Assembly (NCBI GenBank): GCA_020073015.1
Contig: JAIQFZ010000075.1
Coordinates: 1 to 57,001, forward strand
DNA length: 57,001 nt
Source: Terriglobia bacterium
GTDB taxonomy: Bacteria; Acidobacteriota; Terriglobia; Terriglobales; Acidobacteriaceae
Reading direction: 5' to 3'
A program made the position numbers and the translations under genes. Every line of letters begins with the position of its first letter. Within the stretch, counting starts at the first letter, position 1. This document shows, one piece after another, positions 12,155 to 55,790 of the stretch. The notes under the pieces are model-generated. The model was not told where the DNA came from. It searched no databases and worked only from the letters and a program-made list of their open reading frames with translations.

Positions 12155-13096
12155 ATGCCGGGAATGCCCCTTCGCAGCAAACTCACAAAGGTCGCGCGCA
12201 CGGCAGGCAAACTGGTGCGCCGGAAGGCCGACCATCGCGATGGCGCCGAACTGGTCATTATCACCGGCATGAGCGGTTCGGGGAAGGCCTCCGCGCTGAA
12301 GGCGTTTGAAGACCTCGGCTACTACTGCGTCGACAACCTTCCCGTCGAGTTGATTCCGCGCTTTGCCGAACTGGCGTTGCAGTCCGGGGAAATTCCACGC
12401 ACGGCGCTGGTGGTGGACGTGCGCGAGGGCGCGCAACTGGAAAAGTTGCCCGCCATCTTGAAGTCGGTGAAGCGGCTGATTCCGACGCGGGTGATTTATC
12501 TGGAAGCGAGCGATGCTGTGTTGCTGCGCCGGTTCAGTGAAACACGGCGGCCGCATCCATTGGGGACCGACACGCCGGTGCGGGCATCGCTGACGGCGGA
12601 GCGGCGTCACCTCAAGGCCATTCGCGCCATTGCCGACCTGGTGATCGACACTTCGAAATTCAATGTGCACGAACTGCGATCGCACCTGACGGATCGATTC
12701 AAAGCGCACGCGGGCGGACATCAGACGATCTTGGTTTCATGCGTGAGCTTCGGGTACAAGCATGGCGTGCCGGACGATGCCGACCTGGTGTTCGACGTCC
12801 GGTTCTTGCCGAATCCGCACTTTGTGCCGGAATTTCGTCCGTTGACCGGGCGCCATCCGAGGGTGGCCAAGTACATCCGATCGTTCCCGCAGACGAAGGA
12901 GTTCATCAACCGCATTTCGGATCTGCTGGTGTACCTGTTGCCGCACTACGTCCGCGAGGGAAAGAGCTATCTGACGATCAGTTTTGGTTGCACCGGCGGA
13001 CAGCATCGCTCGGTGATGATCGCTGAAGACGTTGGCACGCGCCTGCGCAAGGCGGGATACAAGGTGAAGGTCGTACACCGGGATAGTCCGAAATAG
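12155..13096 (+). CDS. rapZ: RNase adapter protein RapZ (YvcJ family nucleotide-binding protein)
   Basis: A P-loop protein of the RapZ/YvcJ family, which in E. coli controls amino-sugar synthesis through RNase E and small RNAs. The P-loop is GMSGSGKA, with alanine in place of the more usual serine at its end. Family marks YYCVDNLP, FDVRFLPNPHF and CTGGQHRSV are all present. The start is not certain: ATG 12155 or 12164 gives 313 or 310 aa, slightly longer than usual because of a basic lead of about 30 residues. The gene lies 35 bases after the hydrogenase protease. Its TAG stop is also the first word of a repeat hairpin. Confidence 0.92.
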   Translation: MPGMPLRSKLTKVARTAGKLVRRKADHRDGAELVIITGMSGSGKASALKAFEDLGYYCVDNLPVELIPRFAELALQSGEIPRTALVVDVREGAQLEKLPAILKSVKRLIPTRVIYLEASDAVLLRRFSETRRPHPLGTDTPVRASLTAERRHLKAIRAIADLVIDTSKFNVHELRSHLTDRFKAHAGGHQTILVSCVSFGYKHGVPDDADLVFDVRFLPNPHFVPEFRPLTGRHPRVAKYIRSFPQTKEFINRISDLLVYLLPHYVREGKSYLTISFGCTGGQHRSVMIAEDVGTRLRKAGYKVKVVHRDSPK

Positions 13097-13172
13097 GCTT
13101 TAGGGCTCTAGGCTTTCAGTACTATGCCCGGCATTCACAGGCGACCGCCTAGAGCCTAGAGCCTAAAGCCCG
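13094..13172. repeat. Word-type hairpin starting at the rapZ stop
   Basis: The left arm TAGGCTTTAGGGCTCTAGGC begins with the rapZ TAG. The right arm at about 13148-13171 is its complement with one extra base. The arms are made of varied copies of TAGGCTT and GAGCC. Confidence 0.75.
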
Positions 13173-22575: not shown

Positions 22576-22597
22576 GGTAGGCAATCATCCGTCGGCT

Positions 22598-23650: not shown

Positions 23651-23682
23651 GAAATATCAAATCGAATCTGGATGCACCCCAC

Positions 23683-23761
23683 TCCGGCCCGGACGCGGGC
23701 GTCCGCGTCGTCAGTCCGGCAGAGCCTGCCTTGAGGCGAGCCGAAGGGATGCCGGCGCTAC
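23683..23761. repeat. Palindromic repeat abutting the HU gene stop
   Basis: Contains GGACGCGGGCGTCC, a unit CCTGCCTTGAGGCGAGCCGA related to the one in gtrA, and ends with CCGGCGCTAC. On the minus strand GTAGCGCCGGC begins one base or less after the HU gene stop. Confidence 0.7.
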
Positions 23762-24105: not shown

Positions 24106-24146
24106 CCGGGGGATCAATCTCGTAATATGGCAGCACCAGCCGAGCG

Positions 24147-24249
24147 ATTTGTAATTGGCGATTTGTCATTTGTGATTGAAACTTCGCCCTGCCCCCGGTT
24201 TCGATCTCGCCGCAAGATTGCCTATTACAAATCACCAATTACAAATTCC
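24147..24249. repeat. Word-type inverted repeat (ATTTGTAATTGG)
   Basis: The left arm ATTTGTAATTGGCGATTTGT pairs with the right arm ACAAATCACCAATTACAAAT with one mismatch, with about 50 bases between. It is AT-rich, unlike the genes, and ends 11 bases before dcd. Confidence 0.75.
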
Positions 24250-24259
24250 AAGGAGCTGC

Positions 24260-24814: not shown

Positions 24815-24996
24815 CAGGCTTTCGGCTTTGGGCGCTGGGCCTTAGGCTAAGCAGTCAGCACTCGGCGTTTGGTCCGGGGTGAAGGTGCAAGCCTCTGCCC
24901 GCCAGAAGATGCGGGAAATCTTGAAATCCTATGAATGGATGAAGATAGCCGTGAAGGGCCTAACCCGAGAGCCTAACGCCCAAAGCCCAGAGCCGA
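24815..24996. repeat. Word-type inverted repeat between dcd and hfq
   Basis: The left arm starts TCGGCTTTGGGCGCTGGGC, and the right arm at 24968-24996 is its complement at 22 of 26 positions. It fills the gap between two convergent genes and may serve as terminator for both. Confidence 0.7.
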
Positions 24997-24999
24997 CTC

Positions 25000-25404
25000 T
25001 CACTTCTTCCCGTTCTCGCCTTCCTTGAACATGTACTTAATGGCGGGCTTGTAGATCATCAGGTTGGGGGCGCCGGTGCGGTTCAGCTTGATGCACTGTT
25101 TGTCGTACCACTCGATGTAGCCGTGGACTTCCTCGCCGTCACGCAGCACCACGACCATGGGAGTCTTGGTCTGCATCTGTTTCTGGTAATAGAAGTTCTC
25201 GGCGTTGGTCTGCTCGGTGGGGGCAGTCTTCTTGGCCGGCGCGGCGGAACGTTCGCGGTCGCGGCGCTCGCTGGGCGCGTGGTTGTGCGCGTGATTGTGG
25301 TTGTGATCGTTGCGGCTGAGCGAAGGGCGGATCAGCTTGCGATTCGCGAAGCCTTCCTGATCGCCGGATTGTTCGGCTGGTATGGGATCGACGGTGTCTT
25401 TCAT
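25000..25404 (-). CDS. hfq: Hfq-like RNA chaperone with long N-terminal extension
   Basis: A 134-aa Sm-fold protein that likely binds small RNAs and mRNAs. The Sm1 region is residues 80-110 (TPMVVVLRDGEEVHGYIEWY) and Sm2 is 112-126 (NLMIYKPAIKYMFK). The usual YKHA of E. coli Hfq reads YKPA here. A 70-residue extension precedes the core, with a histidine-rich patch HNHNHAHNH at 34-42 and a basic stretch ERRDRERS. The usual C-terminal tail is almost absent. Related forms are seen in other Acidobacteriota as far as I recall. It stands alone, ending close to the repeat hairpin. Confidence 0.85.
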   Translation of the reverse strand: MKDTVDPIPAEQSGDQEGFANRKLIRPSLSRNDHNHNHAHNHAPSERRDRERSAAPAKKTAPTEQTNAENFYYQKQMQTKTPMVVVLRDGEEVHGYIEWYDKQCIKLNRTGAPNLMIYKPAIKYMFKEGENGKK

Positions 25405-25636
25405 ATCGCACCACCTGCGCGCATGGCGGCAGAATATGCCACAACACTTGAGCCTGTGCTTGTGGGTTCTGAGGTGTGAACTTAACGATTACGGTATCAC
25501 AGCCAACTGGGGATGACAATCATTTGTGCGGCTTGGGAGGCAGTTTCTGAGCCAAGACTGAAGGAGATCAAGCGCGCCCCAACGGTCGATTTCCAGTCTC
25601 TGGTGGAAGCTGAATTCCCGGGCGGCGAGTCCCCTG

Positions 25637-26737: not shown

Positions 26738-26776
26738 GAGACTTCTTTCTGCTGCAGAAGGGCGAGAGAATCGCTG

Positions 26777-26830
26777 TTGGCTCTTAGCTCTTGGCTTTTA
26801 GCTAAGGGCTAAAGGCTAAGAGCCAAGAGC
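26777..26830. repeat. Word-type hairpin between tmk and holB
   Basis: TTGGCTCTTAGC on the left pairs exactly with GCTAAGAGCCAA on the right, with further pairing of the inner TTTTAGC words. It is followed by a unit CTCCGTGTCTCTGTGGTG. Confidence 0.75.
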
Positions 26831-26859
26831 GGTTTGTCTCCGTGTCTCTGTGGTGAGTC

Positions 26860-31779: not shown

Positions 31780-31787
31780 TTCGAGAT

Positions 31788-31861
31788 CGTAGTTAGTAGT
31801 TCGTAGCTCGTAGTTCGTGAAAACTGCAGTTTTGGCTTGCGAGCTACGAACTCCGAACTAC
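31788..31861. repeat. Word-type hairpin starting at the rimM stop
   Basis: The arms share AGTTCGTAGCTCG as an exact inverted match. On the minus strand the first word begins with the TAG stop of rimM (TAGTTCGGAGTTCGTAGC). Confidence 0.75.
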
Positions 31862-32409
31862 CGGTTCACATCCAACAATCCTTCCGGCAACCGCATCCGA
31901 ACCTGCTTGCGTTCCAGATCCACTTTCTCCAGATACGCTTCCGCGAACGGAATCTCGTAAGGCAACTTCGCTCCGCCCGGCACAATCAGCAGCGGTGCTT
32001 CACCGGCTCCAAACTGCACGTCCTCAATCGGGCCAATCTCGCGCTCGACGTCAAACACCGTGCAACCGATCAGATCGCTCAGGTACGTCCAGCCCGGCTC
32101 CAACGGGGCGCGTTCACTGCTCGGCAGCTGAAGCTCAGCGCCCACCAGCGGCTCGGCATCGGAAATCGTCTCGACGCCCGCAAACTTCAGCACCAGAAAT
32201 CCCTTGTGCGGCCACAAATCCTCGACCGATACCTCGCGGCGCTCGCCCGTTTTCAGGAGCGCCCAAAGCCGCATGTCTTCCCGGATGCGGTCCGGAACAT
32301 CGGTGTGCAGCTCGACGGCGACTTCTCCGCGGCGTCCCTGGGTCTTGATCACCAGCGCCAGGGTAATAAACTCGCCGCTAGAGTTCTCTGTTGCGATGGG
32401 ACTCGCCAC
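31858..32409 (-). CDS. rimM: Ribosome maturation factor RimM
   Basis: Assists late assembly of the 30S head and binds S19 (183 aa). The N-terminal domain has ALVIKTQGRRGEVAVEL and the PRC-type C-terminal domain has GPIEDVQFGAGEAPLLIV and LPYEIPFAEAYLEKVDL. The start, a GTG at 32409, lies inside a word-type repeat, so the exact N-terminus is uncertain. It sits between khpA (17 bases upstream) and trmD, the usual order. Confidence 0.93.
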   Translation of the reverse strand: MASPIATENSSGEFITLALVIKTQGRRGEVAVELHTDVPDRIREDMRLWALLKTGERREVSVEDLWPHKGFLVLKFAGVETISDAEPLVGAELQLPSSERAPLEPGWTYLSDLIGCTVFDVEREIGPIEDVQFGAGEAPLLIVPGGAKLPYEIPFAEAYLEKVDLERKQVRMRLPEGLLDVNR

Positions 32410-32429
32410 TCGCTACCCGCCACTCGCTA
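32400..32429. repeat. Direct word repeat over the khpA stop and rimM start
   Basis: On the minus strand TAGCGAGTGGCGGG is followed by TAGCGAGTGGCGAG. The first TAG is the khpA stop, and the second unit contains the rimM GTG. Confidence 0.7.
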
Positions 32430-32678
32430 CTCAATAATCTCCAGCGCGTAGCGCTTGTTCTGCTTCGACCCCGCCGCGCTCAACACCGTGCGCAAGGCGC
32501 GGGCGACTCGGCCCGACCGCCCAATCACTTTGCCCAGATCGGCCTCAGCCACTTCCAGTTCGATGACGATTTCATCGCCATCCTCGTACTCGTCAATGAA
32601 AACCTCACCCGGCGTATCGACGAGCGCTTTGGCAATGTGCTCGATCAGCGCACGCGTGTTGGCAGCCTGCTCAATCAT
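32427..32678 (-). CDS. khpA: KH-domain RNA-binding protein KhpA
   Basis: An 83-aa single KH-domain protein. The RNA-binding GxxG loop is in GKVIGRSGRVARALR. The acidic first half (DEYEDGDEIVIELEVAEAD) and the rest match KhpA. It lies between rpsP and rimM as in many bacteria. A ribosome site, AGGAG, precedes the ATG. In other bacteria KhpA works with KhpB; no khpB is in the window. Confidence 0.93.
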   Translation of the reverse strand: MIEQAANTRALIEHIAKALVDTPGEVFIDEYEDGDEIVIELEVAEADLGKVIGRSGRVARALRTVLSAAGSKQNKRYALEIIE

Positions 32679-35123: not shown

Positions 35124-35858
35124 CTAACCGATGCCCTCAAGCTTGCTCAGGATTTCGAGCGGCTCCGGCCTTTCTGTGTAGTCCTCGTTCGCGGAGGCGA
35201 AGAGAACCGTCCCGTCACCATCGATGATGTAGGTTGCGGGAATCGGTAGTGTCCAGCTGTCGTCGCCGTTTACCAGGGGAAGATTGACGAAGGTACGGCG
35301 ATAAAGGTCCTGCTGTTCTTGCGAGGCACGGTACGCCAGGCGATAAAGGTCCTGCTGTTCTTGCGAGGCACGGTACGCCAGTCCGAACTGGCGGGCGACT
35401 TCGTTATGGGTGTCCACCAGCAAGGGGAACGCGAGTTTGTGCTGGTCGTGCATGAAATAGGCCTGCTTCTCGGTCTGCGGCGAGATGGCCGCGAGAGAAG
35501 CTCCGGAGGCGACGATCTGCGCAGCTACGTAATTCATGGCCTCCATCTGCCCAACGCAGAAAGGACACCATCGCCCGCGAATGAACAGTAGAACCAGGCG
35601 TCCCTTCGCGAGCAGGTCCGACGAGGTGACCATCTTGCCGTCGTGGTCGTGGAGCGCGAACGGAAGAGACTTGGCCCCAACACCGAGCGCCCGGGCAGCG
35701 AAGCCCTGCGCCTTTAGTACGGCGATGGCGCGGTCGTGGATGGCCTGCACGTCAGCGGGAACATATTTGGCGATGAGTTCTTTGCGCTCCGCAAAGATCT
35801 GCCGCAGGGGGCGAGTGTCGTCGTAGGAACCGGATTCTGAGAGGGAACGCCACTTCAT
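35124..35858 (-). CDS. Peroxiredoxin-like protein with internal tandem duplication
   Basis: An AhpC/TSA-type thioredoxin-fold protein of 244 aa. The catalytic site is in FIRGRWCPFCVGQMEAMN, with the peroxidatic cysteine at CPFC. It begins with a helical lead of about 70 residues. A 14-residue block, LAYRASQEQQDLYR, is doubled in tandem, and its 42-base units are nearly identical, so the event is recent. The block lies in a helix-loop region after the core strand, and the effect on folding is unknown. It is followed 41 bases later by the decarboxylase-like gene. Confidence 0.88.
   Translation of the reverse strand: MKWRSLSESGSYDDTRPLRQIFAERKELIAKYVPADVQAIHDRAIAVLKAQGFAARALGVGAKSLPFALHDHDGKMVTSSDLLAKGRLVLLFIRGRWCPFCVGQMEAMNYVAAQIVASGASLAAISPQTEKQAYFMHDQHKLAFPLLVDTHNEVARQFGLAYRASQEQQDLYRLAYRASQEQQDLYRRTFVNLPLVNGDDSWTLPIPATYIIDGDGTVLFASANEDYTERPEPLEILSKLEGIG
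35299..35382. repeat. 42-bp tandem duplication
   Basis: Copies 35299-35340 and 35341-35382 agree at 41 of 42 bases and keep the reading frame of the peroxiredoxin gene. Confidence 0.95.
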
Positions 35859-42783: not shown

Positions 42784-43308
42784 ATGTGGAAGCCCACGAA
42801 TCAACCTGCGACGCCTGGCCGGCCAGCGGAGCCGGAGCGCCCGAGCACGGCTGCTCCCACGGCGGCACCCTCGCTGAGTGAACCTGCTGCCCCGCGCCCG
42901 GTTACCACGACCACTGCTTCGGACCAAGCCACGATCGGCAAGTCGCTGGTGATCAAGGGAGAAGTAACGGGTTCTGAGTCTTTATATATTGACGGCCGGG
43001 TGGAAGGATCGATCAACCTTTCCGGCAACCGCGTAACCGTGGGCCGGAACGGCGTGGTCGCGGCCAACATCAACGCGCGTGAAATCGTAGTTCTCGGCAA
43101 GGTGCGCGGGAATCTCACGGCCAGTGACCGCGTGGATATCCGCAGCGACGGCTCGCTCACGGGCGATGTCGTGGCGGCACGCATCTCGATCGAAGACGGT
43201 GCCTTCTTCAAGGGTGGCATCGATATCCGCAAAGCTGGGGCGAAGCCGGAGGAAGTGAAGGCATCGACCTCGAGCACCGCGGAACCGGCGATTGCGGCCA
43301 GGGCGTAG
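42784..43308 (+). CDS. Bactofilin
   Basis: A 174-aa cytoskeletal protein that forms filaments without nucleotide. The beta-helix core runs from about residue 48 to 155 (ATIGKSLVIKGEVTG, LYIDGRVEGSINL, VTVGRNGVVAANI, ISIEDGAFFKGGI), flanked by proline- and threonine-rich tails as usual. murJ lies next to it on the opposite strand, so both serve cell wall or shape, though they are convergent. Its TAG stop opens a repeat hairpin, and a terminator follows. Confidence 0.94.
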   Translation: MWKPTNQPATPGRPAEPERPSTAAPTAAPSLSEPAAPRPVTTTTASDQATIGKSLVIKGEVTGSESLYIDGRVEGSINLSGNRVTVGRNGVVAANINAREIVVLGKVRGNLTASDRVDIRSDGSLTGDVVAARISIEDGAFFKGGIDIRKAGAKPEEVKASTSSTAEPAIAARA

Positions 43309-43473
43309 AGCCGGCTTTAGGCTCTCGGCTTTGGGCTCAGGGTTTCGGAAGATAAGTTCGACGAAGAGGGCATCCTTGGTTTTGAGGGTGCCCTCTTGTT
43401 TTGGGAACTAGTGGCTGTACGGCAATTCGGACTCAATGGCCTAGAGCCTTGCGCCCAGAGCCGAAAGCCTGGT
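43306..43473. repeat. Word-type inverted repeat between bactofilin and murJ
   Basis: The left arm starts on the bactofilin TAG (TAGAGCCGGCTTTAGGCTC) and the right arm (GAGCCGAAAGCC) ends about 2 bases from the murJ stop. The arms enclose a terminator. Confidence 0.7.
43364..43402 (+). terminator. Rho-independent terminator of the bactofilin gene
   Basis: The stem AAGAGGGCATCC pairs with GGGTGCCCTCTT (one G-T pair) around a 10-base loop, followed by TGTTTT. Confidence 0.8.
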
Positions 43474-48576: not shown

Positions 48577-48919
48577 CCCGACGATTACTTTTGGGGGTTC
48601 CGCCACAGAAGAATCCAAGCTATAATGTATTCAGTCATCGTGCGCTCGAACGGCTCCATTTCGCGTCTCCGGATGTGCTGGATCGAGGGACGTGCCTGTC
48701 CTCGCCGGTACCTCTCCGTTCTGCCCTCGCACGTGCGCGCCAACCTCTTCGGCAGCGACTAGTTCTTCCTTCTCCGCTTTCCTGCAGTGGTTACAGCTAT
48801 TAGCTCTTAGCCTTTAGCTCTTAGCTTTTACCCGGTGCGGCAACCATGCTGCGTGAATCTGGGCTCAACCACTGGCAACTGGCAACCGAGAACTGACAAC
48901 TGCTTTTGGAGAAACTGCC
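48577..48919 (+). promoter_or_regulatory. Gap before the aminotransferase gene
   Basis: A perfect TATAAT lies at 48621-48626, with only a weak -35 (TTCCGC) at 17 bases. Single arms of word-type repeats (TTAGCTCTTAGCCTTTAGC near 48798-48825 and CAACTGGCAACC near 48880) occupy the second half. No gene is seen. Confidence 0.45.
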
Positions 48920-55705: not shown

Positions 55706-55726
55706 GAACGATAGCTCCATCGAAAG

Positions 55727-55790
55727 CTCTTGGCTTTTGGCCTTCAGCCATTAGCTAGAGCGATCCGCACTTCGGATCGCTAAATGCTGA
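55727..55790. repeat. Word-type repeat and hairpin between fdx and iscX
   Basis: AGCTCTTGGCTTTTGGCC words are followed by a perfect 9-bp hairpin AGCGATCCG-CACTT-CGGATCGCT at 55759-55781. Confidence 0.65.

Follow-up and report, generated by a model that had tools for sequence, protein, structure and literature searches.

The window, by which we mean the whole stretch of 57,001 nucleotides analysed here, carries paired hairpins and single repeat arrays in the gaps between its protein genes. A hairpin of GGCTYTN words follows rapZ at 13094-13172, with a left arm (about 13094-13117) that begins in the TAG stop codon of the gene and a right arm at 13147-13170 (period 7; fold z -4.6). The dcd leader holds a RATTTGT/AATTGGY hairpin (24144-24251; arms 24144-24177 and 24224-24251; z -5.2) whose second arm adjoins the ribosome-binding site, and the convergent gap after dcd holds another GGCTYTN hairpin (24817-24994; z -3.9) with arms at 24817-24851 and 24960-24994, 108 nt apart. 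Between a DNA polymerase III delta-like gene and a thymidylate kinase gene lies a TTRGCTN hairpin without any spacer (26769-26834; arms 26769-26801 and 26802-26834; z -7.6), while a GTAGTTC hairpin separates trmD from rimM (31784-31861; arms 31784-31818 and 31839-31861; z -7.5) and a further GGCTYTN hairpin occupies the convergent gap between the bactofilin gene and murJ (43311-43470; arms 43311-43338 and about 43438-43470; z -5.7). Three arrays are partnerless: ACTCGCY at 32401-32432 (period 7; z -0.4), overlapping the boundary between the rimM start and the khpA stop; TTAGCTN at 48795-48833 (z -0.6); and, in the same gap as the latter, CAACTGR at 48871-48902 (period 7/14). A TTGGCTN-type array at 55726-55757 is partly self-pairing (z -3.6). 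An Rfam scan of the window returned 0 matches at the gathering score.

A sequence-only reading of this DNA had placed paired hairpins at 13094, 24147, 24815, 26777, 31788 and 43306, and all six indeed fold far below shuffles (z -3.9 to -7.6), with words that differ between the loci as it had claimed. Its description of 32400, 48798 and 55727 as single arms fits the first two, which are structureless; at the third, the fold z takes in a separate GCGATCC/GGATCGC hairpin. Arms had also been said to begin at the TAG stops of four genes, and all four were recovered (rapZ, 13094-13096; bactofilin, 43306-43308; rimM, 31858-31860, and khpA, 32427-32429, both on the minus strand), the four gene names being confirmed by Pfam. 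We saw no significant excess of TAG among the stops beside arrays (9 of 17, vs 143 of 380 among all stops of this genome, p = 0.14).

Other features of the window were noted alongside these loci. REP-like GTAG/CGCCGGCG and GCGGGCA palindromes occur in several gaps (3983, 19045, 20702, 39755, 41867 and 50748), and a perfect 42-bp tandem duplication (35297-35380) lies within a minus-strand reading frame (35124-35858). The minus-strand gene at 25000-25404 codes for a protein with an Hfq-related domain (Pfam E-value 1.7e-8); its leader, 25405-25636, shows strong conservation within the genus, with 58 of 140 columns invariant across 10 aligned genomes, and represents a candidate promoter and regulatory leader RNA. 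The dCTP deaminase is 96% identical to that of an Acidobacteriaceae bacterium MAG from a fen, the nearest named record found in a search that may omit records very close to this genome; Terriglobia and Terriglobales MAGs come next, and the source may be a relative of Ca. Sulfotelmatobacter.

The arms of all nine loci are united by a seven-base period: they are degenerate heptamer arrays, a tandem make-up that the sequence-only reading had overlooked. When the window was compared with itself over lags 2 to 30, lag 7 and lag 14 each produced 6 segments and no other lag more than 1, while one Markov-resampled window sequence gave at most 1 segment per lag. Tandem Repeats Finder (TRF) called a period of 7 or 14 at 13147, 24144, 26773-26820, 31787, 32401, 43312, 48795 and 48871; it made no such call at 55726, where the array was found by a sensitive lag scan. 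On the basis of the lag signal and the TRF periods, we interpret the varied words as degenerate heptamers. The names used here for the window words (GGCTYTN, TTRGCTN, GTAGTTC, RATTTGT/AATTGGY, ACTCGCY and CAACTGR) are our own summaries of degenerate units.

The same signal extends beyond the window. From the source genome, a 5.5 Mb draft in 245 contigs, we scanned 445,777 bp (window included), in which a simple codon-usage gene caller defined 291 gaps totalling 65,225 bases. Lags 7 (25 segments) and 14 (22 segments) were the main repeat signal in these gaps, followed by lag 21 (6 segments) and lag 8 (4 segments), compared with 0 and 0 in resampled gaps and 2 and 2 in coding DNA. A more sensitive lag scan of this genome detected 56 segments vs 0 in its control, a few of them repeats of other kinds (e.g., CCTCTCT), and added the words AGGTCWC, TCAGCNN, CTAGCTN and AGTTCTC, so that several different words coexist in one genome. 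As tandem 7-base units in non-coding DNA, these loci are heptanucleotide repeat arrays (STRR, or long SSR), although they depart from the near-exact single word per array expected of that class, since the units within an array are degenerate, with TRF matches of 81-94% at most loci. Clustering of 104 arrays, including those of relatives, gave three broad groups of 50, 36 and 16 members without sharp borders, plus two singletons, and species-specific word "dialects" were weak (p = 0.03) and vanished when this genome was left out (p = 0.2). The array detector behind such counts is strict, to the point that the hairpin at 43311 was not counted as an array-bearing gap.

Next, we evaluated how often arrays pair within their own gaps. 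The excess of inverted partners over chance called for by the sequence-only reading was found: 21 of 40 arrays in this genome had a same-gap inverted partner within 160 nt that beat all 100 resampled flanks (0.4 expected), as did 31 of 64 arrays in same-genus stretches (0.6 expected), leaving about half (19 of 40 and 33 of 64) partnerless. Likewise, a score of 14 was reached by the arrays' own flanks in 18 of 40 cases vs 1.6 with swapped flanks, and in 28 of 64 vs 2.0 in the same-genus stretches. When neighbouring arrays were compared, 36 of 38 pairs were more similar inverted than direct, 33 of these with a similarity ≥0.7, in a set that takes in 18 regions picked by a GGCT pattern and orthologous loci, that required both arms to be detected as period-7 arrays, and in which 7 of the 33 are dcd leaders. 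Two generic GGCT-word arm finders were discarded as too loose because they accepted coding DNA, and their permutation values (0.78 and 0.0) were left unused. In-register similarity between the arms of one hairpin was 17.1, compared with 15.0 for arms of other hairpins with a similar word (n = 29, p = 0.013); the arms of a hairpin have a word in common more than a sequence. The earlier suggestion that arms are copied locally thus holds more for the word than for the exact arm, which exceeds the same-word background only slightly. Folding of whole gaps, a blunter test, gave z < -3 in 39% of 38 array gaps vs 15% of 211 other gaps, but a rank test on these z-scores gave p = 0.10.

The two arms also follow a polarity rule. 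The left arm was richer in G+T in 31 of 33 clear pairs (17 of 19 in this genome, p = 7e-4), a set in which species are not independent and to which dcd leaders contribute 7 pairs. Over 103 arrays, orthologs included, G+T averaged 0.63 in the left half of the gap vs 0.465 in the right (p = 9e-7); for this genome alone the values were 0.58 (13 arrays) and 0.45 (27 arrays; p = 0.006), and 562 array-free gaps displayed 0.506 and 0.505 in their two halves. The polarity is strand-symmetric, the sense strand tending to carry G/T words after a stop and A/C words before a start. Outside the genus, 4 of 6 inverted pairs agree with the rule and 2 fail, with a record titled Verrucomicrobia (L086) placed with the other phyla in this test and a seventh pair, from a near relative (L077), not counted.

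Arrays are concentrated at gene ends and in particular gaps. Within 12 nt of a stop we found 43 of 102 arrays vs 23.3 expected under uniform placement, and within 12 nt of a start 25 of 104 vs 14.4 expected. Orthologous gaps held arrays in 24 of 43 cases where the gap of this genome has one and in 22 of 112 where the gap of this genome is array-free (p = 2e-5, with orthologs not independent of each other); of the latter 22 arrays, 19 fall in two gaps, and seven well-sampled gaps gave 0 of 55. This concentration of ortholog arrays indicates that some gaps are favoured, which can simply reflect descent and by itself does not demonstrate selection.

The orthologous gaps of same-genus genomes show how the words change. 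In the gap after rapZ, read by eye in 24 genomes, GGCT hairpins occur in this genome, G001 and G023, with a weaker one in G019; TCGCTNT words appear in two genomes and 8-base ATTGANTC words in two, all as single arms, REP-like pairs occur in at least 4 genomes, and the remaining genomes are without such words. In the gap at 26738-26859, a word-built hairpin was recognized by eye in 10 of 12 genomes, this one included, spelled with at least 5 words, while one of the two others has a REP pair and the other has none; among the 11 orthologs of this gap, the automatic detector finds arrays in 6 and reading by eye in 9. The gap at 31780-31857 has heptad hairpins in six of nine genomes (by eye, this one included) and a long palindrome in a seventh, and its words GTAGTTC, GTGGTTN and GTCGTTN differ mainly at one base, in most units and on both arms. 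After priA (22576-22597), the gap of this genome is array-free and 10 of 15 orthologs carry arrays of several words. For two gaps, arm similarity was 0.89 and 0.85 within species vs 0.76 and 0.75 for the same arm between species, and right arms resembled the left arms of their own species more than those of other species (the observed pairing was reached by 2 of 720 and 5 of 720 reassignments in an exact permutation), in a test on six species each for which gaps were chosen and arms delimited by eye and species without a heptad hairpin were excluded. Taken together, the occurrence in one gap of hairpins spelled with a different word on both arms in related species suggests that the fold can survive the loss of the sequence that spelled it. 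The proposal that form is kept while text changes is borne out at these gaps, but since elsewhere orthologs are without the hairpin or have a REP-like pair in its place, the hairpin is not always kept.

Further elements were observed in the same comparisons. In orthologs of 23651-23761, most relatives have a GAGGTCA/GATTGCA hairpin upstream of an HU-type gene or after the next gene and G015 has a CTAGCTN hairpin, with neither type in this genome or G001. Relatives carry TGTAGAGACGGGGC...GCCGCGTCTCTACA REP-like pairs in orthologous gaps, and some of their hairpins (in G012, G003, G015 and others) include the 8-base units ATTTTGTA and ATCGGGTA.

The dcd leader hairpin, seen in most same-genus genomes with its word family retained, is the only hairpin that could be aligned well. 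A dcd match was obtained in 20 genomes, two of which could not be scored, one having weak arrays and one no hairpin; among the other leaders, unit length on the two arms was 7/7 in 11, 8/8 in 6 and mixed in 1, i.e., in agreement for 17 of 18 (Fisher p = 0.0014 for the first 16 leaders, phylogeny ignored). Pair-by-pair covariation, tested on this leader only, was nil across ten aligned sequences (term 0.05), with two-sided change in 3 of 30 pairs. The view that pairing rather than a fixed sequence is under selection therefore needs qualification, as the words are bound to a unit of 7 bases, or sometimes 8, and covariation is nil in this leader.

Word-built heptads are not confined to the genus. 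The GGCT word pattern was found in all 24 genus genomes searched, this one included, and in the single genome searched from another genus of the family; of 16 more distant genomes, 4 had one or two matches apiece. The backward control pattern of this search gave 18 matches in one distant genome, so that a control may happen to be a heptad word too. Stretches from other families of the class carry other words (CTGAGTG, GCCGGTT and CAGTTGA), and named loci of other phyla contained 6 lag-7 segments in 53,205 gap bases vs 26 in 63,189 here, with the record titled Verrucomicrobia in neither group. Heptamer arrays were also noticed in Anaerolineales, Gemmatimonadetes and Deltaproteobacteria records (L130, L135 and L116), and L135 includes an inverted pair, GATTGCG/CAATCCG.

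How might such hairpins arise and change? We consider that they reflect concerted evolution, through unit slippage and templating between arms, of stems kept at gene ends, an account to which we give about an even chance of being correct. Replication slippage by whole units would gain and lose words and so homogenise an arm, and, where two arms pair, one could template the rewriting of the other by template switching at the quasi-palindrome. Repeated rounds would homogenise the units of both arms, such that a stem could endure through drift or exchange of its word. The stem may mark or shield transcript ends and, in the dcd leader, lies beside the ribosome-binding site, so that a stem would be retained but its spelling would not, and a retained role of this kind would account for favoured gaps and for persistence. 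Concerted evolution fits best because some loci change most units of both arms alike, or change their period alike. Word changes of larger step could equally be replacement by a new hairpin.

Selection on the stem may be dispensable. Neutral heptanucleotide microsatellites, which slippage preferring 7-base units and template switching at any quasi-palindrome would generate in any DNA free to vary, are a possible explanation that we would hold only tentatively: roughly half of the arrays stand alone, heptamer repeats, known to be common, have been attributed to slippage (PMC4679880), and many orthologs have lost or lack the hairpin, the gap after rapZ being an example, but free slippage alone would not lead one to expect recurrent gaps, placement at gene ends or the polarity. 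Alternatively, REP- or MITE-like mobile hairpins could exist as many ready-made sub-families that Y1 (RAYT-type) transposases disperse and that displace each other in preferred gaps. The genome has 8 Y1_Tnp matches, 7 above the cut-off, and an 8-base element, TTTTGTAA-TTTGGTAA-TCGGGTAA, recurs with similar unit order 23 times, spread over 13 of the 24 genus genomes (0 control matches; none of the 23 in this genome), which together make replacement by dispersed hairpins the chief alternative for the larger swaps; REP-like pairs in the rapZ and 26738 gaps of some relatives point the same way. As a general explanation we nevertheless regard mobility as rather unlikely, given that hairpins of the same word lack a common fixed sequence and that the words of the 31780 gap vary mainly at one unit base across both arms, resembling drift.

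Two further explanations assign the hairpins a conventional RNA role. Ordinary stems selected for pairing and maintained by single compensatory changes, the main interpretation of the sequence-only reading, would be consistent with stems that persist through changes of text and with strong fold z at six loci, yet such selection does not predict a 7-base period, the recurrence of one change across most units or a 7-to-8 shift shared by both arms, and with covariation nil across the ten dcd leaders we consider it improbable. The position of many arrays directly 3' of stop codons could suggest intrinsic transcription terminators, but just 3 of 66 hairpin sides are followed by a T-tract, compared with 1.8% of random gap positions, spacers reach 108 nt, the dcd hairpin precedes a start codon, and arrays occur in 5 of 53 divergent vs 3 of 46 convergent gaps of this genome, making termination highly improbable.

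Heptad stems as such already have a precedent. In the P6b stem-loop of the Nostoc tRNA-Leu(UAA) intron, both arms consist of 7-base repeats of Class I (TDNGATT) or Class II (NNTGAGT); one word class has repeatedly replaced the other with a similar stem, and whole units come and go (PMC4476775). The window hairpins have the same complementary heptad arms and word swaps, making P6b the closest known case. Yet P6b is a single intron locus with two words, whereas the loci described here sit between protein genes rather than in a tRNA-Leu group I intron, are numerous and variously worded, include variants with 8-base units and obey a polarity rule. The GGGNATC heptamers that Rehm and colleagues described in Xanthomonas and Nostoc are likewise intergenic and have the same polarity, the G-rich strand lying nearer the 5' neighbouring ORF in either direction (PMC4692102). 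They differ in having one word per organism, explained by G-quadruplexes, instead of many per genome, and inverted arms within one gap, as found here, do not figure in the sections of that study considered. TAACTGA heptamers of Beggiatoaceae, Cyanobacteria and Bacteroidetes also form intergenic arrays, mostly just upstream of starts and in one orientation, but with a nearly invariant word and one inverted repeat in 170 sets (PMC4679880). REP/GTAG palindromes are small and intergenic, and Y1 transposase genes are present here as well, but each REP family has a fixed sequence that bears a GTAG or CGTC tag (PMC3733652), unlike period-7 arrays of changing words; where GTAG occurs in some heptad words, it does so through their own spelling. 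Finally, template-switch mutation, by which one event rewrites an arm of a hairpin to match the other and produces multi-base paired changes, is an established general route, studied in RNA genes and, in the parts of that work considered, unconnected with heptads (PMC8794818). The literature searched, from which subscription journals were mostly missing, yielded no description of heptad hairpins in Acidobacteriota, nor of genome-wide, many-word heptad stems with orthologous gaps, 7-to-8 shifts and this polarity.

Searches for functional RNAs rely on conserved text or on pair-by-pair covariation, and stems rewritten wholesale would escape both. Given close strains, the series of gaps that hold different words provides natural material to separate slippage, template switching, mobile replacement and selection on structure, and the orthologous gaps bear on why 7-base repeats are so frequent between bacterial genes. 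For this bacterium, we tentatively propose, as a possibility still well short of probable, that the genome keeps a text-independent stem at preferred gaps, G/T arm first, whose arms are jointly rewritten in 7- or 8-base units, and that relatives differ in their words. That the heptamers of Xanthomonas and Nostoc have the same polarity hints at a common mechanism, perhaps coupled to replication, by which heptad stems are made and kept, and in which the cell may read shape over sequence.
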